Assembly (NCBI GenBank): GCA_937899645.1
Contig: CALCCD010000044.1
Coordinates: forward strand, 1-47,691
Origin: an uncultured cyanobacterium
GTDB lineage: Bacteria > Cyanobacteriota > Cyanobacteriia > Cyanobacteriales > Geitlerinemataceae
Length of the DNA stretch: 47,691 nt
Direction of reading: 5' to 3'
Shown: positions 5,353 to 41,536 of the stretch, one piece after another
Numbering within the stretch: the stretch's first letter is position 1
Layout of the letters: every line of letters begins with the position of its first letter
Notes under the pieces: model-generated
What the model saw: only the letters and a program-made list of their open reading frames with translations
The model's database searches: none
Told to the model about the DNA's origin: nothing
Program-made: the position numbers and the translations under genes

Positions 5353-7545
5353 CTACACCAGCGCCGCCGCGCGATCGGCCATCGCCTCAGCCGTGATGCC
5401 ATTGAGGCCCATCACCGCCGCAGCGCCCGCCGCCGTTTCGCCGCGCTTCCAGGCGAACATGTCGCGCGGAGCCGTCGATCGCAGCATCACCGGCTCCAGC
5501 ATGGCGCTGGTTCCGCCCGTGACGCCCAGCAGCGCGTCGCCGCCGAACAGCTCGGCGAACTTGGCGTCGTCGATAAAGCCCGTGTCGGCCTCGGAGCAGG
5601 CCTCTGCCGCTACGTCGGTCGGGCGGTAGAGGCGACGCGGGTTGACCACGGCAACGATTTTCGAGCCGATACCTTTCTCGGCCAGAGCGGCGGCGGCTTC
5701 GTAGACCGGGTTCAGCACCATATCGCCAACGACCGCGAACGTTACGACCTTGTCGCCCGCCGTCTCTTGCAGCACGATCGCGCCTTCATCGATCGCCTGG
5801 CGGGTTTGCGCCAGCGTCGTGCGGATCGGCAGCGGCGACTTGCTGGCTGTAATCGTGATGCCCTTGTTGCGCTGACCCAGCGCCCACTCGTAGCAAGCCT
5901 GGATGCCGTTGGCGTCGATCGGGAACAGCGGGAAGATATTGCCGTTGCGCATCATGCCCGCGAAGTAGTTCTCGATTTCGGGGCGCTGGTGCGTCCAGCC
6001 GTTGCGGCCTTGTTCCAGCGCGCCCGCCGTAAACAGGCAGACCGTGGCGGGCGTCGGACGGCGCAGCTCGGCCATCGCTTGAGTCACCGTTTGCCAGATC
6101 GGCAGGCCGTTGATCGCAAACGACTCGTAGGAACACCAGAGCGATCGCGCCCCGAACAGCGCCTGACCCGCCGCCAGACCGGCGCACGCATCTTCACTTA
6201 GCGGCTCGTACACCTGACCGCCGGGACGCTGGAAGTAAGTTTCGTCCACGGTGGGGTGAACGATATTTAGTGCAACGTTGATGTTATTGATGCCCGAGGC
6301 AGCGTTACCGTCGGCGTTGGTGACGACGAAATCCGGGTCGGCTTTACCGACATGGCCGACCAGCTCGCCCATCGCGGTGGTGGCGATTTGCTTGTCGCCG
6401 ATCGCGAACTCGTTCAGCGGCAACGACCCAAGGTCGGGCAGGGCGCGCGTCGATTCGGTCACGGCCACGTCCGAGGCTTTGCCGCCACCGGCGCGGCTGT
6501 AGTTTTCGCGCACCAGTTCCCAAGCGTCCGGCGTCAGCGCCAGCGACTCGAGAGCGTTGGCGATGTAATCCTTCTCGACGGTGTCACCGGGATAAAGGTT
6601 GTGAGACTGCGCGCCACGCTTGTGGACGCCCGCGCCCTTGAGCTGCTTGACGATCAGCACCGTCAGCGTGCCGCCCAGCGCCGACTTGGCCGCTTCGTCC
6701 ACAGCCGTCAGCATCGCTTGGCCGAACTTGAGGCGGGCTTCGGTTCCGAAGCGAGTGCTATCGACGTACGCGCCCTCTTGGTTGGCATCGTCGTAATCTT
6801 TGGCGTCGAGCAGGATGATTTTTTTAAATCCGTTGCCTTCCCAGTAGGCCACCATCTCTTCGTTAGTTTTGGTGGAAACCATGCTGTGGTGCTCTTGGCT
6901 AAAGCCGTTCCAGACCAGCACCGGCAGGAAGTTCGTGACTTCGGGGTAGCTGGTGTTGAAGTGACCGAAGCTACTCGTAATGTAGGGTTCGCCCAGGCCG
7001 CCGTCGCCGATCGTCACGGGGAAGAGCGTGCCGGGGTTGAGCTTCGCGCCGGACATCGCGAAGTGCTGACCCTGACCGAGGGGGCCAGCGGGAGCCAGCA
7101 GGCCGGGGATTTGACCCGACAGGTGGCCGAGAAGACCGTGGGTTTCGCGGAAGCGATCGCAGAGATCCTGCACGGTGTTGATGCCCATATCTTCTAAGGA
7201 CTTATCCAGGAAGACGTTGCTGTAGTAGCCGGGAGCGTGGTGACCGACTTCGGTACAGATATTTTTGTAGCCCAGCATGACCAGCGCGGCGATCGCGTCG
7301 GCGCTGCTGGCAAAACCACCGGGGTGTCCCGAGGCTTTGGCGCTGGTGATTTGGAGCGTCAGGTAGCGCAGCGCGTCGGCGGCGAGCAGGGTTTGGTAGG
7401 CGGCGGCGGGATCGCTGGGATCGGCGATCGCGGTCTGTCCGGCGGCGATCGCGGGGGCTTTGGCGTAGGTCTCAAAGCCGGGGAGCGTCTCGGCGAGGTG
7501 CGTCATCCCCTGACAAAAGGCGGGGGCAGTCGTCGAGCTGGGCAT
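5353..7545 (-). CDS. Transketolase/phosphoketolase-like thiamine-diphosphate enzyme
   Basis: A 730-residue protein. The N-terminal half looks like transketolase: SGHPGGFASS at about residues 72-81, then GPLGQGQHFAMSG, then the thiamine-diphosphate loop GDGGLGE with the expected downstream Asn. The C-terminal half carries GRNGWTHQRPEIENY and PIDANG, which parallel the HNGFSHQDP and PPDAN signatures of phosphoketolase (XFP). This combination resembles the second, atypical phosphoketolase-like protein of cyanobacteria (as I recall, Synechocystis Sll0529) rather than classic XFP or Tkt. A phosphoketolase would split xylulose-5-P or fructose-6-P to acetyl-phosphate; here that activity is inference. 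The upstream inverted repeat at 7605-7638 may be regulatory. The ATG at 7545 gives a normal length for the family. Confidence 0.75.
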   Translation of the reverse strand: MPSSTTAPAFCQGMTHLAETLPGFETYAKAPAIAAGQTAIADPSDPAAAYQTLLAADALRYLTLQITSAKASGHPGGFASSADAIAALVMLGYKNICTEVGHHAPGYYSNVFLDKSLEDMGINTVQDLCDRFRETHGLLGHLSGQIPGLLAPAGPLGQGQHFAMSGAKLNPGTLFPVTIGDGGLGEPYITSSFGHFNTSYPEVTNFLPVLVWNGFSQEHHSMVSTKTNEEMVAYWEGNGFKKIILLDAKDYDDANQEGAYVDSTRFGTEARLKFGQAMLTAVDEAAKSALGGTLTVLIVKQLKGAGVHKRGAQSHNLYPGDTVEKDYIANALESLALTPDAWELVRENYSRAGGGKASDVAVTESTRALPDLGSLPLNEFAIGDKQIATTAMGELVGHVGKADPDFVVTNADGNAASGINNINVALNIVHPTVDETYFQRPGGQVYEPLSEDACAGLAAGQALFGARSLWCSYESFAINGLPIWQTVTQAMAELRRPTPATVCLFTAGALEQGRNGWTHQRPEIENYFAGMMRNGNIFPLFPIDANGIQACYEWALGQRNKGITITASKSPLPIRTTLAQTRQAIDEGAIVLQETAGDKVVTFAVVGDMVLNPVYEAAAALAEKGIGSKIVAVVNPRRLYRPTDVAAEACSEADTGFIDDAKFAELFGGDALLGVTGGTSAMLEPVMLRSTAPRDMFAWKRGETAAGAAAVMGLNGITAEAMADRAAALV

Positions 7546-7604
7546 AGCGATCTCCTCTCTTGGGTTCGGCGGTCAAAAATGTAAGAACATTTTCACATTC
7601 TGAG

Positions 7605-7638
7605 CCCACTAAAACAATACTCGCGTTGCTTTAGTGGG
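7605..7638 (-). promoter_or_regulatory. Inverted repeat upstream of the transketolase-like gene
   Basis: CCCACTAAA (7605-7613) and TTTAGTGGG (7630-7638) are perfect 9-bp arms, with CAA/TTG extending the pairing inward after one mismatch. It lies 60 bp before the ATG at 7545 and 40 bp after the stop of the preceding same-strand gene. No T tract follows on the minus strand, so an operator or leader hairpin fits better than a terminator. Confidence 0.45.
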
Positions 7639-7678
7639 GGGCGCCGTGGGAGTCGTCGCGGGGGTGACGCAATGCAGC

Positions 7679-8947
7679 TCAGCTCTCCGATTTAGCCTCG
7701 AGGTTGGCTTCGAGACTGGCTCCGTTGCCGTCGAACATAATGCCGAGCTTATTGCCGTCCCAGCCCAGCGGGAAGCAGCGCGAGACTTCCAGCAACTGCG
7801 ACTGAGAGTAGCCGCCGTAGGCGAATAGCTCGCGGCGCGGCGGGTCGAAAAAAATGCCCGATCGCACCAGTCGGGTGCGCTCGCTGCCCCACAGGAAAGG
7901 CTGGTCTTCCGGAAAGGGGCGGTATGGGCCGGTCACGCAATTCGAGGTATAGCAGAGAACGGACGACTGGCTCAGGCGGCTCGGTCGCTGACGCGATCGC
8001 CAGTCGGGATGCAGCCGATCGCTCGGGCAGGAAAACAGCAGGTAGTAGCGATCGTTGGCAAAAAACACCTGCGGGCGCTCGACCTTGCCGAAAGCCGATG
8101 CACCCGGTTGCCGCACGCCCTGGAGCATGACGGGCGGCAGTGAGATCCACTCGTCTTCCGGGCGATCGCGCACCGCTACGCCGACACAGGCGCGGTAGCT
8201 CTCGTCGTCGAACTCCGCCGCATCCGCCCCAACAAACAGGTATGTCTTCTGATTGGGTGGATTGAAAAACGACGTGGGGGCAGACTGGCTGCCGGGTCGG
8301 TAGTGCTGCGGGTCGAGCGATAGTGCCGAGTCGCGGACGGTTTCCCACGCTTGCCCGTCTGTCGAAACGGCCAGCGCGATCGAGCGTCGCGTGCCTGTGG
8401 GCGTCTGTTCCCGCCGCGCGTAGTGCATGTAGAACTTGCCGTTGGTAATGCGGGTCGTACCGCTGCCGAAAGTGACATTGCTGGGTGCATTGAGGATCTG
8501 GCCGTCGTAGTGCCAGGTTTCGAGATCTTCCGAGCGGGCGGCATGGATCGATCGCGACGGCTCACCCCAGCGACCGGCAAGGTAATAGAGACGGTAGAAG
8601 CGGTTATCCCAGAGCAGCCAGGGATCGCGCAGCCCGTGATGTCCGTAAATTAAGTCGCGGTTGAAGTGTAGCGACAGCGCGACGCCGGGGGCGCGCAGCT
8701 CTGCGGCCCGCTCGAAGCTCGCCCTGGCCGCTTCGAGGTCGCCCAGCTTCCACCACTGCTGCCCGAGGCGAAACTGGGCTTCGGCGTAGTTCGGTCGCAG
8801 CGCCACGGCCTGCTGGTAGCTGCGTAGTGCCGCCCGCGATCGTCCGCCCGCTTCCAGTGCCTTACCCAAATCGAGGTAGCCCAGCGCCAAATTAGGACTC
8901 GCACGCACGCGATCGCAGAGTTCTTGGAGTTCGGAGGGGTCGGGCAT
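7679..8947 (-). CDS. TPR domain fused to a five-bladed beta-propeller resembling GH43/GH32/GH68 glycosidases
   Basis: A 422-residue protein. Residues about 5-88 are two to three tetratricopeptide repeats (LGYLDLGKALEAGGRSRAAL; AQFRLGQQWWKLGDLEAA). Residues about 100-410 look like a five-bladed propeller: GLRDPWLLWDNRFYRLYY at 105-122 resembles blade 1 of GH43/GH32 enzymes, and KFYMHYARRE and ALAVSTDGQAWE are typical propeller strands. KVERPQVFFANDRYYLLFS (Glu290) plus TGPYRPF strongly recall the general-acid block of GH68 levansucrases. A canonical RDP motif in the middle blades is not obvious, so activity is unproven. No signal peptide, so the propeller would act in the cytoplasm. It lies in the same direction as the transketolase-like gene, 133 bp upstream of it. 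Confidence 0.6.
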   Translation of the reverse strand: MPDPSELQELCDRVRASPNLALGYLDLGKALEAGGRSRAALRSYQQAVALRPNYAEAQFRLGQQWWKLGDLEAARASFERAAELRAPGVALSLHFNRDLIYGHHGLRDPWLLWDNRFYRLYYLAGRWGEPSRSIHAARSEDLETWHYDGQILNAPSNVTFGSGTTRITNGKFYMHYARREQTPTGTRRSIALAVSTDGQAWETVRDSALSLDPQHYRPGSQSAPTSFFNPPNQKTYLFVGADAAEFDDESYRACVGVAVRDRPEDEWISLPPVMLQGVRQPGASAFGKVERPQVFFANDRYYLLFSCPSDRLHPDWRSRQRPSRLSQSSVLCYTSNCVTGPYRPFPEDQPFLWGSERTRLVRSGIFFDPPRRELFAYGGYSQSQLLEVSRCFPLGWDGNKLGIMFDGNGASLEANLEAKSES

Positions 8948-10781: not shown

Positions 10782-11243
10782 CTAGTTATTCGATTTGCGG
10801 CGAGCCTCGGCTCCCATACGTCCGCGCGCGATCGGTAACCCCGCACGAGGGACTGACGTCTTGGCCCGCTCGGCTTCAAGCTGCTGGAGTTCGGTGTAGT
10901 CCACCCAGTGGATGCAGTCCACTGGGCAGGTGTCGATTGCCTCTTGAATGATGTCCTCCGAATCGCCGTTTTGATCGGCAACGCGAGCACGACCGAGGTC
11001 GGACTCGATGTAAAACGTGTTGCGCGCAGTCAGAGCGCAGTGCATGCAGCCGATGCAGGTCACTTCATCGACAAAGACGCCCTTCTGCCTAAAAGTGCCA
11101 CCCAGCTCCGGCTCGAAACCGCTGCGATCGGGCGAAGCATCGTGCAACTCTGCGCTCAGCTCCGGCTCGAAACCGCTGCGGCCGTCCGATAGATCGGGCG
11201 CAAACTCCGAAGCGACATCTGGCAAGCGATCGCTCTGAGTCAT
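10782..11243 (-). CDS. Single-cluster 4Fe-4S ferredoxin with repeated N-terminal extension
   Basis: A 153-residue protein; ATG 11243 is chosen over the upstream in-frame start because GAGGAG sits at good distance from it and upstream sequence is not ferredoxin-like. The iron-sulfur domain (residues about 55-115) has CIGCMHC (Cys63, 66, 69) and the distal CPVDC (Cys106, 110), the pattern of a monocluster bacterial-type ferredoxin. The first 50 residues are unusual: the octapeptide RSGFEPEL occurs at 22-29 and 40-47, encoded by a 24-bp direct repeat. The C-terminal 35 residues are basic. It is the last gene of a minus-strand set with Ycf35 (11694-12080) and DUF2997 (12222-12437), a grouping that suggests the three proteins work together. 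A role as electron donor to that machinery is inference. Confidence 0.88.
   Translation of the reverse strand: MTQSDRLPDVASEFAPDLSDGRSGFEPELSAELHDASPDRSGFEPELGGTFRQKGVFVDEVTCIGCMHCALTARNTFYIESDLGRARVADQNGDSEDIIQEAIDTCPVDCIHWVDYTELQQLEAERAKTSVPRAGLPIARGRMGAEARRKSNN
11103..11180 (-). repeat. 24-bp direct repeat inside the ferredoxin gene
   Basis: Identical 24-bp copies at 11103-11126 and 11157-11180 (54 bp apart, in frame), encoding RSGFEPEL plus a flanking residue. Perfect nucleotide identity suggests recent duplication or gene conversion rather than convergent protein selection. Confidence 0.9.
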
Positions 11244-11572
11244 CGTCAAGCTCCTCGTTCTGATATGGCTGTTCTGTCTTGGTATGGCAGTCTGGGAAAG
11301 ACGACAGCAATACGCCACCGCCAGTAGGAACCTGTCGCCTGCGGGTCGCGGCGCGAGCCCGCGAATCTGCAAATGACCGGCTCGGTTTACAAACGAGAAC
11401 CCGAACCTCTCTCTCAAACGGAACTTTCGTCCCGACACGAACTCAAATAATTTGTGCCCGTAAACCAGCCGCGCTCGATACACGGGAAACTCCGGCCTTT
11501 CGTGGCTTCCGTTGGGCGAGCGCTCGACGGCTGACCCAAATATGGGCCTGATGCCAGTGAATGGCTCGCCTT

Positions 11573-11602
11573 AAAAGAAAAGACGCGCGATCGCGCGTCT
11601 TT
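11573..11602 (-). terminator. Rho-independent terminator downstream of Ycf35 copy 1
   Basis: A perfect palindrome (AGACGCGCGATCGCGCGTCT, 11581-11600, extended by AA/TT) followed on the minus strand by TTTTCTTTT. It lies about 90 bp after the Ycf35 stop. It separates Ycf35/DUF2997 from the ferredoxin, which therefore probably also has its own promoter in 11244-11570. I see no gene in 11244-11693. Confidence 0.75.
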
Positions 11603-11693
11603 CGTCCACGTGGCTTGGGGCGATCGACGATCGACTCGCAGCTCGCGCGTAACGGCGGCCCCAGAAAAACAGCGCTACTTAAAATCGCACCAA

Positions 11694-12080
11694 TTACGCG
11701 CCCCAGCGTTGAAGCACCAGGCGAATCGAACCGTCGGCATTTTTGTCCTTTTCGGACACCTGGAAACCCTGCTTCTCGGTTTCCTGCATCACCGTGCTGA
11801 AGGCGTACTGCTGGGTCACTTTGTTGATAAAACGCTCGACCGAGCCGTTTTGCGCCCAATACTGCAGATCTGCAACCAGCTCGTAAGCCGCGCCGTTCCA
11901 AGCAAAACCGATGTCGTAGCCATTGCTCTGTTCGATAACTACGTCTGCGCTCAGAGTCTGGCCGCGATAGCCGCGAACTCGAGCGGGACCTGCTTTCCAA
12001 TCAATATCGAGCGTCGTTAGCGCGCTTTTAAGCGTTGCAAGGTTGCGAATTTTGGTTTTGATATGGCTGAAGTGCGACAT
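11694..12080 (-). CDS. ycf35: Ycf35 / DUF1257 protein, copy 1
   Basis: A 128-residue protein starting MSHFSHIKTKIRNLATLKSAL, the conserved Ycf35 opening. RGYRGQ, a DIGFAWN block and LVADLQYW follow, and the middle WAQNGSVERFINKVTQQYA is also typical. Ycf35 is encoded in many algal plastid genomes and in cyanobacteria; its biochemical role is not established. This copy is more divergent from the plastid consensus than copy 2 (38278-38631) and carries an Asp/Lys-rich C-terminal insert (SEKDKNADGS). It lies between DUF2997 (142 bp upstream) and the ferredoxin gene (451 bp downstream). The shared MSHF start fixes the N-terminus. Confidence 0.9.
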   Translation of the reverse strand: MSHFSHIKTKIRNLATLKSALTTLDIDWKAGPARVRGYRGQTLSADVVIEQSNGYDIGFAWNGAAYELVADLQYWAQNGSVERFINKVTQQYAFSTVMQETEKQGFQVSEKDKNADGSIRLVLQRWGA

Positions 12081-12221
12081 TTGCGTAACTCTTCTTTACT
12101 TATTGAAGGGTTGAGAAACAAAAAACGAAACTCGAAAACTTTTTCTGATGCCAGACTACATCGAGCACGGGCGCTAACTTCGCCGCCCAACCTCAATTTC
12201 CCGACATGCTGCGAATCGAGC

Positions 12222-12437
12222 CTAAGACCAATCGCTTTGGAGCGAGCTGTTGTGGGCGGACTGGCTCGTTTTCGCTTGGGAAGCGGCAAAAAACTCTGAA
12301 GTCTTGTCGCTAGAGAGGACGACGCCCAACTCCGCTTCAAGCGCGGCGGTTAAGTCGGCACAGGATGCACCCTCGATTCCGGTAACTTTCTCGATAACGC
12401 GACCATCCGGATAGATGACAAACTCTAGCGTTTCCAT
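12222..12437 (-). CDS. DUF2997 small protein
   Basis: A 71-residue protein starting METLEFVIYPDGRVIEKVTGIEG, with SCADLTAALEAELG following. This is the DUF2997 pattern, a small family I know mainly as a neighbour of DUF1257/Ycf35 genes. The ATG at 12437 matches the usual MExxEF start; a GTG at 12458 is in frame but adds non-conserved residues. No membrane segment and one conserved Cys in GASCADLT. The last 15 residues are Ser/Gln-rich. Function unknown. The upstream region 12438-12825, shared with the divergent bioU gene, presumably holds promoters for both; I see no further feature in it. Confidence 0.82.
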   Translation of the reverse strand: METLEFVIYPDGRVIEKVTGIEGASCADLTAALEAELGVVLSSDKTSEFFAASQAKTSQSAHNSSLQSDWS

Positions 12438-38277: not shown

Positions 38278-38631
38278 CTATTTTTGGACGACAAGCTTCA
38301 CGTTCGCATTTTGCAGACCCGGACGGCGAACTTCCGCGAGGGTTTTGTTCACCGCGTATTTTTGGTTGATCGAGTTGATCAGCTCGGTCTGGTTGTGCTT
38401 TTTGGCGACGCCCCAGAGGTCGGCGATCAGGTCGAACGAACCGTCGCTGTTGCGCGACCAGCCGATGTCGTAGTCGCCTTCGAGGACGGCAACGATGTCG
38501 GCGCGGACGCGCTGGCCGTTGTAGCCACGGATGTCCGCTTCGGTTTTGGTTTGGACGCCGAGGTCGCTCAGAGCCGACTTAAGAACGGTCGCGTCGGAGA
38601 TTTTGGTGCGCAGGGTGCTGAAGTGAGACAT
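38278..38631 (-). CDS. ycf35: Ycf35 / DUF1257 protein, copy 2
   Basis: A 117-residue protein: MSHFSTLRTKISDATVLKSAL at the start, RGYNGQRVRADIVAV, YDIGWSRNSDGSFDLIADLWG and QKYAVNKTLAEVRRPGLQNA later. This copy is closer to the plastid-encoded Ycf35 consensus than copy 1. A strong Shine-Dalgarno (AGGAGG, eight bases before ATG 38631) fixes the start and suggests high expression. It follows ycf46 by 142 bp on the same strand, and an intrinsic terminator lies downstream. Function not established; the pairing with the AAA+ protein Ycf46 suggests it is a partner or substrate of that ATPase, which is inference. Confidence 0.93.
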   Translation of the reverse strand: MSHFSTLRTKISDATVLKSALSDLGVQTKTEADIRGYNGQRVRADIVAVLEGDYDIGWSRNSDGSFDLIADLWGVAKKHNQTELINSINQKYAVNKTLAEVRRPGLQNANVKLVVQK

Positions 38632-38773: not shown

Positions 38774-40285
38774 CTACGACTCCATGCGCTGGTAGTCAGC
38801 CATGGAGGCGGCGGCGGGTCGGGCTCGCTGCCGCGCCCAATCTCGCAGTGCCGTTACCTGCTCGGTCATCGTCTTCGACAGCGGCAAGGTGGACTTGACC
38901 GCTGCGATGATATCGAGCTGGGTGAACTCGCGATTTTGGGCGAATGCTTCGTACATCGCCGCGACGATCGCCTGCTCTATCTCGGCTCCGGAGAACCCTT
39001 CGGAGACCTTGGCGAGCTGGTGGAGATTGAAGCGATCGACCTGCGGGCGGCGCTTTTCGAGGTGGATGCGGTAGATATCCTCGCGCTCGTCCACGTTGGG
39101 CAGATCGACGAAGAAGATCTCGTCGAAGCGGCCTTTACGCAGAAACTCTCCAGGCAGGCGATCGACGCGATTGGCCGTCGCCATCACGAATACCGGCGAG
39201 GTTTTCTCCTGCATCCAAGTCAGGAACGAGCCAAAGATGCGGCTGGACGTGCCGCCATCGGAGTCTGCCGAGCCCGCACCGCCCGCAAAAGCTTTGTCGA
39301 TTTCATCGATAAATAAAATCGCCGGAGAAATCGACTCGGCGGTGCGGAGCGCGCTGCGTAGGTTGGCCTCCGATCGCCCGACCGTCGAGCCGTCGTAAAC
39401 GCGACCGATATCCAGACGCAGCAGCGGCAGACCCCAGAGACGCGCCGTCGTCTTGGCGATTAACGACTTGCCGCAGCCGGGAACGCCGAGGATCAGCATC
39501 CCTTTCGGCTGGGGTAGGCCGTACTCGCGAGCCTTTTCGGTGAACGCGTCCGATCTCTGAAACAGCCAGTGCTTGAGTTCCTCGAGGCCGCCGATCGAGT
39601 CGATAGTTTCGTCGTCTTCGATATATTCGAGAATGCCATTGCGCTTGATGAGCTGGCGCTTCTCGGATAAGACGATATCGACCTCGGACTCGGTAAGCTG
39701 GCCGGAGGTGACGCAGGCTTTGCGATAGACCTTCTCGGCTTCGTCTTTGGTCAGACCCAGCGCCGCCTTGAGCAGCTTCTCGCGAGACTCGGCACTCGGA
39801 CGCGGACTGTTGCTATCGAGCAGTTGTGTATTCAGAACGCGATTTAGCTCGCGCATGTCTGGAAGCTGAAAGTCGAGGACGACGATCTCTTTCTCCAGCT
39901 CGGTGGGAATGTTCTGCACCGGCGACATCAGCACGATCGACTTGTCGCTACCTTTGAAGTACGCGACGGCATCGCGCAGAGCGCGGGTGACAGTTGGATT
40001 GTCGAGAAAGGGGTGCAGGTCTTTGAAGATATAGATCCCCGACTCCTTGTGACGCACGACCCAGTCGAGGGCGGCCTCGGGAGAAATCGTATTGTGCGGG
40101 CTGCCGCCCGAAGACTCGTTCACCTCGCGGATGCCCTTCGTCACAGCCCAGGAAAAGACTTTCGGTCGCGAGGGCAGCGTTTTTGCCAAGGCCGCGATCG
40201 ACTGTTCGGCGCGCTCTTCCTCGAAAGTAACGAGGTAAATCAGCGGATATTGAGCTTGGATGAGAACGTTGAGCTCTTCTCTCAT
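38774..40285 (-). CDS. ycf46: Ycf46 AAA+ ATPase
   Basis: A 503-residue protein. Residues 1-190 form the Ycf46-specific N-terminal domain (YLVTFEEERAEQSI; IFKDLHPFLDNP; LMSPVQNIP). Residues about 225-500 form a classical AAA+ module: Walker A GVPGCGKS (267-274), Walker B ILFIDEID (323-330), sensor and arginine-finger region FVMATANRVDRLPGEFLRKGRFDE. Ycf46 is encoded in red-lineage plastids and cyanobacteria; the Synechocystis homologue (Slr0374) has been reported to affect CO2 uptake. It is placed between the RHH regulator gene (108 bp upstream) and ycf35 copy 2 (142 bp downstream), all on the same strand. ATPase activity is very likely; the substrate is unknown. Confidence 0.95.
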   Translation of the reverse strand: MREELNVLIQAQYPLIYLVTFEEERAEQSIAALAKTLPSRPKVFSWAVTKGIREVNESSGGSPHNTISPEAALDWVVRHKESGIYIFKDLHPFLDNPTVTRALRDAVAYFKGSDKSIVLMSPVQNIPTELEKEIVVLDFQLPDMRELNRVLNTQLLDSNSPRPSAESREKLLKAALGLTKDEAEKVYRKACVTSGQLTESEVDIVLSEKRQLIKRNGILEYIEDDETIDSIGGLEELKHWLFQRSDAFTEKAREYGLPQPKGMLILGVPGCGKSLIAKTTARLWGLPLLRLDIGRVYDGSTVGRSEANLRSALRTAESISPAILFIDEIDKAFAGGAGSADSDGGTSSRIFGSFLTWMQEKTSPVFVMATANRVDRLPGEFLRKGRFDEIFFVDLPNVDEREDIYRIHLEKRRPQVDRFNLHQLAKVSEGFSGAEIEQAIVAAMYEAFAQNREFTQLDIIAAVKSTLPLSKTMTEQVTALRDWARQRARPAAASMADYQRMES

Positions 40286-40393: not shown

Positions 40394-40741
40394 CTAACAG
40401 GTGACGAGGTTGCCTTCGCCTGCTGAGCGATCGGTTTGCGAGCCGATCGGCAGCTCGTGGGGAACCTCTTCGTCTTCGAGAATGCTGGCTGCGCTGGCAA
40501 CGGAGATCAGTTCGCCATCGCGGATGACGGCGGGCGTCGAACAGTCGGGACAGTGATAAACCCGGTGGTTCTTGCCGACAGCGGCTTCAGCTTCGACGAT
40601 CGCCTCGGGGTGTTCCAAATAAAACAGCAAGGCGCGCTCGGCTAAAGCAGACATCGGCTCGCCATCGACTGCGGCGCGAATCTTGAGATTACGGTGCAGC
40701 TCGGCGGGCAGATATAGCGTGACTTTTTGTTTGTCTGGCAT
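40394..40741 (-). CDS. Ribbon-helix-helix protein with a CPDC zinc-ribbon-like segment
   Basis: A 115-residue protein. Residues about 1-48 are an RHH DNA-binding fold (KVTLYLPAELHRNLKIRAAV followed by MSALAERALLFYLEHPEAI). Residues about 58-75 contain HRVYHCPDCSTPAVI, a half zinc-knuckle. The rest is acidic and the last residue is Cys115. It may regulate the ycf46-ycf35 unit that follows, or act as an antitoxin-like factor; no toxin gene is adjacent. The ATG at 40741 sits before a run of conserved RHH residues. Length is typical for cyanobacterial CopG-like proteins. Confidence 0.75.
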   Translation of the reverse strand: MPDKQKVTLYLPAELHRNLKIRAAVDGEPMSALAERALLFYLEHPEAIVEAEAAVGKNHRVYHCPDCSTPAVIRDGELISVASAASILEDEEVPHELPIGSQTDRSAGEGNLVTC

Positions 40742-40999
40742 TCGTTTCGCGGGTGCTCCGACCCCTGGGTTGAGACTGAATATAGCGATCCTACACGGAA
40801 GGCGTCAAGACGGAATAACGTCATGACGTCAATCTTGTAGCTTTTGTTTACATTTGGGCGAGATCGCAAGGGGAGTCTGCGGGGCGTTGGCTGAGAGAAT
40901 TGCACTCTCCGTGCAGCTCTCGTCGATTTCGCGTCAGAATGTAGGACGATCGCGCTGTTGCCAGATTTATCGAAACGTTTTTACATCGCAGCAATTCTT

Positions 41000-41536
41000 A
41001 TGAGCGGAGCAACGACCGAGAGCCTCTTTAGTACCGAAAATTTCGCCCTGGCGACCCAGTACATGCTCGAATTGGCCGGTGTGTTCGCCGTGCTGGCGAT
41101 TTTGGCCTTTAGCTTCCAGTGGGGCATCCGCTTTCGACTGGTGGGCGTGACGAGCTTTACGTTGGTGCTGGCCGGTGGCCTGTTCGCGCTCAGCATCGTG
41201 CCGTTTACGCCGACGATCGTCGAAGGGGCCGTGTCTTACAGCCTGGTGTTCGACAATGGCGGCTCGCGGCTGGCGATCGCCGTTGCGCCCGAAACCACGC
41301 CGGAAGGGGTTGAAGCGACCCTGCGTCAGGTGGTGCTGAACAAAACCACTTACGGACGTGCCGGTCGCGAGCTGGAGATTCGAGCGCGGACGATCGTTCA
41401 CCCCAGCGAGGACGTTTCGGAAGCGTTGTATCTGGGCCGCGCCGTGCGATCGCTGTCGAGCCTGGAGGACGACGCGATCGATATTCAGCTCGATCCAGCG
41501 GCCTTTGAGAAGCGCGATCGCGTCCTGGCCTTGTAG
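41000..41536 (+). CDS. ycf51: Ycf51 / DUF2518 family membrane protein
   Basis: A 178-residue protein. ATG 41000 (MSGATTESLFSTENF) is preferred to the TTG at 40958. Two N-terminal membrane segments (about residues 22-38 and 48-66) surround the conserved QWGIRFRLVGVTSFTLVLAG. A soluble domain follows (YSLVFDNGGSRLAIAV; VEATLRQVVLNKTTYGR). This matches Ycf51, present in cyanobacteria and some plastids; its function is unknown. It is divergent from the RHH gene and followed after 39 bp by the SanA-like gene on the same strand, which may be co-transcribed. Confidence 0.85.
   Translation: MSGATTESLFSTENFALATQYMLELAGVFAVLAILAFSFQWGIRFRLVGVTSFTLVLAGGLFALSIVPFTPTIVEGAVSYSLVFDNGGSRLAIAVAPETTPEGVEATLRQVVLNKTTYGRAGRELEIRARTIVHPSEDVSEALYLGRAVRSLSSLEDDAIDIQLDPAAFEKRDRVLAL

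Follow-up and report, generated by a model that had tools for sequence, protein, structure and literature searches.

Does a cyanobacterium that keeps two Ycf35 (DUF1257) paralogues in two separate gene clusters hold two systems, or two parts of one? The question is raised by a 47,691-nucleotide stretch of DNA (the whole of which is here called the window) from an uncultured cyanobacterium of the Geitlerinemataceae (contig CALCCD010000044.1 of assembly GCA_937899645.1), in which one DUF1257 gene is grouped with genes for a DUF2997 protein and a ferredoxin, and the other, 26.6 kb away, with the gene for the AAA+ ATPase Ycf46. Ycf35 and Ycf46 are retained in many plastid genomes, and in the accessible parts of the literature a biochemical role has not been established for them. 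The principal result of this analysis is that a Ycf46-family ATPase, DUF1257 and DUF2997 recurrently share one operon, both in phages and in phyla remote from one another, an arrangement that is apparently unreported, as no description of a joint Ycf46-DUF1257-DUF2997 system was found in the literature searched (most subscription journals lay outside that search). A first-pass annotation of the window had proposed that the two clusters belong to a single redox-linked remodelling machine with exchangeable Ycf35 subunits; given how the families co-occur and share an operon across such lineages, there is good motivation for treating both clusters as belonging to one system.

Scans with a Ycf46 alignment were evaluated at the best 80 genome loci, 56 of them outside the cyanobacteria, and at the best 80 viral loci, with related genomes counted as separate here and in all other counts. 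Among the 56 non-cyanobacterial loci, DUF1257 lay near 23 and DUF2997 near 27, with either of the two near 27, and all 54 partner matches were on the Ycf46 strand, 52 of them within 3 kb and two farther away. One or both partners lay near 39 of the 80 viral loci, always on the same strand as Ycf46, and a stricter cut left DUF1257 at 36 of the 80 genome loci and 35 of the 80 viral loci. A reverse test that starts from DUF2997 rather than Ycf46 was made in the Myxococcota, Planctomycetota and Bacillota. DUF2997 was detected in 49 of 188 Myxococcota genomes, and the 40 regions analyzed, none of which falls in the 30 genomes taken from the Ycf46 scan, hold DUF1257 in 40 cases, Ycf46 in 38 and all three genes on the same strand in 38, with the order Ycf46>DUF1257>DUF2997 in 36; of the two regions without Ycf46, one (L266) is truncated at a contig end. 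Planctomycetota (DUF2997 in 31 of 199 genomes) gave 36 regions, with DUF1257 in 34, Ycf46 in 31 and all three on the same strand in 30, in the orders Ycf46>DUF1257>DUF2997 (18) and DUF1257>DUF2997>Ycf46 (12). By our own estimate, a given gene is expected in 14 kb of a 6 Mb genome by chance in about 1 of 400 cases. The co-occurrence of these families in genome neighbourhoods, a check that the first-pass annotation had proposed, is far beyond chance.

The same three genes are also found together in additional modules of cyanobacteria. Nine of the 13 loci holding extra DUF1257 copies of cyanobacterial genomes hold DUF2997 and a Ycf46-family ATPase too, and all three genes are present at seven of eight plasmid loci. 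The accessory ATPases are not just any AAA protein, since the Ycf46 match extends into the N-terminal part in all but three of 28 (L063, L065 and L066). Natural fusions of DUF1257 and DUF2997 were identified on a Nostoc plasmid, in a Brevibacillus genome (with a weak DUF1257 half, 30 bits) and on a viral contig, and because such fusions occur a direct contact between the two proteins is favoured at the level of predicted sequence. Three long fusions (L033, L038 and L046) were set aside, as they look like over-long frames in GC-rich DNA.

In the window itself the three core genes are not one operon; they are divided between two minus-strand clusters, whose places and gene order agree with the first-pass annotation. 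The first comprises, in order, a DUF2997 protein (12222-12437; Pfam PF11211, E=7.5e-20) of 71 amino acids (aa) with a single cysteine, C26, a type A DUF1257/Ycf35 protein (11694-12080; PF06868, E=5.4e-43; 128 aa) that falls in the type A clade of the DUF1257 tree, and a Fed7-type ferredoxin (10782-11243; PF13370 (Fer4_13), E=2.8e-17; 153 aa), separated by gaps of 141 and 450 bases. The five cysteines of the ferredoxin (63/66/69/106/110) have spacing identical to that published for Synechocystis Fed7 (C53/C56/C59/C96/C100; PMC4284462, accessible text). The second comprises an slr0373-family blue light stress response protein (40394-40741; NF052617, 148 bits against a cut-off of 100), the slr0374-type Ycf46 AAA+ ATPase (38774-40285; PF00004, E=1.9e-28; 503 aa) and a type B DUF1257 protein (38278-38631; PF06868, E=3.4e-23; 117 aa) in a clade apart from type A, regarded as slr0376 type by synteny, with gaps of 108 and 142 bases. 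Pfam and NF052617 uphold the names given earlier with one exception: the name 'RHH regulator' for the gene at 40394-40741 is weak because its RHH_5 match is under the Pfam cut-off (14.4 bits against 26, E=0.031), and the gene belongs to the slr0373 family. This gene is adjoined on the opposite strand by one for a DUF2518 protein (40958-41536, plus strand). The window genome encodes a further Ycf46-family protein, 45% identical (G000:C15:57446-58903; L315, about 6402-7964), a relative of which in genome G002 has one small downstream neighbour in common with it.

Neither cyanobacterial cluster is new, since DUF2997-ycf35-fed7 and slr0373-Ycf46-slr0376 have both been published, and the earlier designation of an undescribed system in this DNA does not hold at that level. 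As far as the accessible text goes, the former is 'cluster g', conserved among cyanobacteria; fed7 is induced by low inorganic carbon, high light and iron starvation; cells that have lost it tolerate oxidative stress, metal stress and iron limitation less well; and a two-hybrid assay detects binding of Fed7 to the DnaJ-like protein Sll1384 (PMC4284462). SigD-dependent genes are reported to include ssl1263, fed7 and ycf35 (PMC8875361, in part). The accessible parts of two further papers describe an operon slr0373-slr0374(Ycf46)-slr0376 that responds to blue light, iron deficiency, high light, low inorganic carbon and other stresses, and credit Jiang et al. 2015 with assigning Ycf46 a role in CO2 use (PMC7496141, PMC7283877). 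According to these partial sources, low iron, high light and low inorganic carbon are therefore conditions to which both cyanobacterial operons respond (PMC4284462, PMC7496141, PMC7283877).

The separate pairings are deeply conserved. In a sample of 98 genomes of the phylum, 40 of which belong to the class of the window (Cyanobacteriia) and 58 to others, type A DUF1257 lies within 320 bases of DUF2997 in all 40 Cyanobacteriia genomes; type B is present in 39 of them and lies within 520 bases of the canonical Ycf46 in all 39 (distances are those between profile matches), so that each pairing is far beyond chance. The sole Cyanobacteriia genome without type B (G095) is also missing the canonical Ycf46. 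At least one additional Ycf46-family protein, with 43-46% identity, is encoded in each of the 40 genomes. In a family of cyanobacterial relatives (f20), Ycf46 is present in 10 of 38 genomes and DUF2997 in nine, all nine falling within the ten (Fisher p=6e-8); DUF1257 is absent there by Pfam profile, and a custom profile marks one weak copy (L047). Among 14 named control genomes, neither DUF1257 nor DUF2997 was found outside Synechococcus elongatus.

Ycf46 carries the sequence motifs of an AAA+ motor. Across 216 aligned sequences, the Walker A residues G267, G270, G272 and K273 are invariant and S274 is present in 214, the Walker B residues D327 and E328 are invariant, and R383 and R386, presumably arginine fingers, are conserved in 214 and 216. 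The best solved-structure matches of the C-terminal part are Cdc48 chains. The N-terminal part is without a Walker A, with a Glu pair conserved in 215 and 212 of the 216 sequences and an Asp in 215; a weak profile match to the AAA part (P=2e-4, probability 47%) suggests that it is perhaps a degenerate AAA domain. In DUF2997, G12 and C26 are invariant in 65 aligned sequences, and its structural model, of lower certainty and too weak for a fold search, consists of two strands and one helix (mean pLDDT 74.5, pTM 0.48), whereas the AlphaFold2 model of type A DUF1257 is confident and alpha-beta (mean pLDDT 87.5). No solved structure related to either protein was matched at E under 0.03; DUF2997 gave weak copper-protein matches only among PDB sequences (best E=0.037). 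An alignment had raised the suspicion that DUF1257 and DUF2997 are homologous, but profile comparison gave a probability of 0.8% and the idea was rejected. In the DUF1257 tree, which the window type B protein enters as an identical copy (L231), types A and B form separate supported sets; the deep branches are unresolved and the bootstrap is not settled, and the tree therefore gives no order of duplication relative to dispersal. An open frame of 557 residues in one cyanobacterium (L027 6602-8275) carries a type B DUF1257 domain close to its C-terminus. All three core families are listed as unknown function in PHROGs.

Around this core the neighbours vary by lineage. The Fed7 type is confined to canonical Cyanobacteriia loci among the loci scanned, and 39 of 187 loci have a different Fe-S partner nearby, a radical-SAM protein of NrdG-like type (PF13353; phrog_626). 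As to the ferredoxin in the first-pass proposal, Fe-S partners do recur, but they are of differing kinds. An Hsp70-like gene is near 12 of 163 core loci and none of 83 others (p=0.01), and GrpE-like genes are near eight loci. A Bacillota locus reached via Ycf46, that of Sporomusa sp. KB1 (L130), has all three core genes, with Hsp70, DUF1257, Ycf46, DUF2997 and radical-SAM genes placed end to end. In Myxococcota, a protein with FHA and coiled-coil regions is encoded upstream (33 of 40 regions by clustering, 31 of 38 by profile), its FHA domain confirmed by Pfam in one representative. The Myxococcota regions (L235-L274) also show a protein of about 260 residues without a Pfam match after DUF2997, in 19 of 40 by clustering and at 29 of 38 Ycf46 loci by profile.

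A single machine accounts most simply for the operons that recur, the fusions, the nested occurrence and the one joint loss. On balance it is somewhat likely, judging from these predicted proteins, that Ycf46, DUF1257 and DUF2997 belong together as subunits of a single AAA+ machine for protein remodelling. Its ATP-driven motor would be Ycf46, built from an N-terminal part without Walker A and an active AAA+ module, and DUF1257 and DUF2997 would be small partner subunits, putative adaptors that choose or hold the substrate. The extra genes, which may target the machine or report on its state, would differ by lineage: Cyanobacteriia would use Fed7, many phages and some bacteria the NrdG-like radical-SAM protein, accessory modules Hsp70/GrpE, and Myxococcota the FHA-coiled-coil protein. 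Within Cyanobacteriia, the operon would have been dispersed into slr0373-Ycf46-DUF1257B, a stress-induced motor half, and DUF2997-DUF1257A-Fed7, an adaptor half that is SigD-dependent in Synechocystis. The two DUF1257 paralogues could then let a single stress-induced motor accept a second, Fed7-tied adaptor set, and Fed7, via its DnaJ contact, could couple the adaptor half to the redox state of the cell and to Hsp70. The Fed7-DnaJ contact and the Hsp70/GrpE genes of other modules point to the Hsp70 system in a way that is suggestive only.

Several observations weigh against this single machine. Within the phylum but outside Cyanobacteriia, in members that we take to be non-photosynthetic, 10 of 11 DUF1257 loci lack both Ycf46 and DUF2997 in the stretch, and all four further DUF2997 loci have neither DUF1257 nor Ycf46 (L032-L046), and the reading is weakened because the genes are dispersed there also. 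About half of the Ycf46 loci are partnerless, which tempers the otherwise well-motivated idea of one machine with exchangeable, paralogous Ycf35 subunits: neither partner is nearby at 29 of the 56 non-cyanobacterial or 41 of the 80 viral loci among the best 80 of each scan, and contig ends do not explain this, as a partner is found at 18 of 33 non-cyanobacterial and 35 of 59 viral Ycf46 loci that have 3.5 kb on both sides. These Ycf46 proteins may serve other complexes or have their partners elsewhere in the genome. In the Bacillota, where DUF2997 is present in six of 299 genomes, the four regions recovered from DUF2997 hold Ycf46 in one case, DUF1257 in two and all three genes in none, two of the regions being matches barely above the cut-off. 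DUF2997 is on the opposite strand at one accessory cyanobacterial locus (L023), and a Treponema plasmid and two cyanophages have DUF1257 with no Ycf46 match in the stretches examined. The Fe-S partners, Fed7 and the NrdG-like protein, are of unrelated kinds, and the Hsp70 loci are not independent, since eight of the 12 belong to the phylum of the window. The fold search with DUF1257 was uninformative (best Foldseek E=0.12; best VIA Z 6.1, to AMPK/KA1-type domains, within background). Finally, slr0376 is reported to be mainly monocistronic in the accessible part of PMC7283877.

The Treponema plasmid, pTRESU01, carries its DUF1257 gene (L061 7001-7408) within a contractile-tail cluster of sheath, baseplate and tail genes, with neither Ycf46 nor DUF2997 matched in the stretches examined. 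In the Prochlorococcus phages P-SSM2 (L067 4802-5381) and P-SSM7 (L068 4847-5384), DUF2997 and DUF1257 form an overlapping gene pair annotated only as hypothetical (T4-GC 174/175), which in P-SSM7 is directly before psbA and near a ferredoxin gene.

The rival that survives best holds that the two clusters are independent cyanobacterial stress systems with only the DUF1257 domain in common, Fed7 and its small partners acting in the ferredoxin-glutaredoxin-thioredoxin network and Ycf46 with slr0373 and slr0376 regulating CO2 use, so that the joint operon found elsewhere no longer reflects a cyanobacterial complex. It would fit the distances: both clusters are on one contig in 21 of the 40 Cyanobacteriia genomes, with separations from 26.6 kb in the window to 3.8 Mb, and they are far apart in most. 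A meaning for the closeness of the two clusters was rejected on this range, and their 26.6-kb proximity is an accident of the window genome. The separate clades of types A and B and the differing roles published for the two clusters, so far as the accessible accounts describe them, also agree with two systems, as does the separation of the genes in non-photosynthetic relatives. This last observation has a second consequence, as DUF1257 and DUF2997 are mostly alone in those relatives, so that dispersal is not special to Cyanobacteriia, and the idea that gene splitting is peculiar to that class was rejected. Two independent systems are difficult to reconcile with the three-gene operons of Myxococcota, Planctomycetota, phages and cyanobacterial plasmids, the overlapping induction of the two operons in the partial published record, and the joint absence of Ycf46 and DUF1257B from G095. 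This explanation is accordingly considered a possible but doubtful one.

An Fe-S enzyme could instead be the core, with DUF2997 as carrier or substrate of the NrdG-like radical-SAM enzyme and the AAA+ protein merely activating or recycling it. The radical-SAM gene lies within 7 kb of 24 of 38 viral core loci, that is, those with DUF1257 or DUF2997, and of none of the 42 others (p=6e-11), and near 11 of 39 genome core loci against two of 41 others (p=0.006); the 7-kb distance makes these core totals differ slightly from the partner counts of the Ycf46 scans, and the viral figure is inflated because the viral loci include near-copies. The invariant C26 of DUF2997 would suit such a carrier, and a radical-SAM gene is near DUF2997 at five of the 36 Planctomycetota loci, of which two show no Ycf46 in the stretch. 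Against this, among the loci with Ycf46, 37 of 38 in Myxococcota and 28 of 31 in Planctomycetota showed no such gene nearby, and the gene may simply encode a standard NrdG (phrog_626), which renders an enzyme core unlikely. Least probable, to the point of being very unlikely, is a mobile conflict or phage-defence module of which Cyanobacteriia domesticated two pieces: the core does occur on plasmids and viral contigs, accessory cyanobacterial modules additionally carry FGE-sulfatase, HEPN, WD40 and pentapeptide proteins, and IetA, a component of a defence system, is similar to the AAA part of Ycf46 (E=1.3e-25), but the PADLOC search does not support an anti-phage system, with no match for DUF1257 or DUF2997 and an IetA match to the AAA part only, and both the conservation of type A in all 40 Cyanobacteriia genomes and the carriage of the core by phages themselves are unlike a defence island.

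Returning to the single remodelling machine, its shared operon in distant phyla offers a first tangible starting point for studying two plastid proteins, Ycf35 and Ycf46, and turns the question of Ycf35, Ycf46 and DUF2997 into whether the three purify together and what is remodelled. A more far-reaching version is put forward tentatively, as possible rather than probable: a widespread AAA+ machine, undescribed in the literature searched and present in bacteria, Hodarchaeota and phages, and in plastids as Ycf46/Ycf35, may swap its Fe-S partner by lineage, with a ferredoxin serving oxygenic phototrophs and a radical-SAM protein serving phages and some bacteria, and may remodel stress- or iron-sensitive complexes with Hsp70, the dispersed cyanobacterial genes letting a stress-induced motor pair with two Ycf35 adaptors. 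The joint operon would also give a setting for Fed7, whose loss reportedly makes cells sensitive to metals, oxidative stress and iron limitation, would help to explain the DUF2997-DUF1257 pair in some cyanophages, and would point to a phage- and plasmid-borne AAA+ system composed of PHROGs families of unknown function.

Among known systems, the Cdc48/VCP-type AAA+ remodellers are similar to Ycf46 in that its C-terminal part likewise has Walker A, Walker B and conserved arginines; they differ from it in that the Ycf46 N-terminal part has no Walker A and only a weak AAA likeness. For IetAS, whose second gene is IetS, the likeness covers profile positions 112-345 of 374 in IetA and residues 250-485 of Ycf46, the AAA part only. 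The first cluster of the window has the same three genes in the same order as the fed7 cluster g, the last encoding a bacterial-type ferredoxin, with the same Fed7 cysteine spacing, and the accessible published account of cluster g makes no connection with Ycf46. The second cluster corresponds to the slr0373-slr0374-slr0376 operon, which likewise runs from an slr0373-family gene through Ycf46 to a small third gene; slr0376 (116 aa in a table of PMC2823733, available in part) is matched to the window type B DUF1257 (117 aa) by order and length, not by sequence, and the accessible account of the operon gives no link to DUF2997 or fed7. The DnaJ-Fer proteins of green algae, plants and Thaumarchaeota, in whose published account, so far as accessible, DUF1257, DUF2997 and Ycf46 are not mentioned, join a ferredoxin and a J domain in one protein and thereby parallel the contact of Fed7 with DnaJ.

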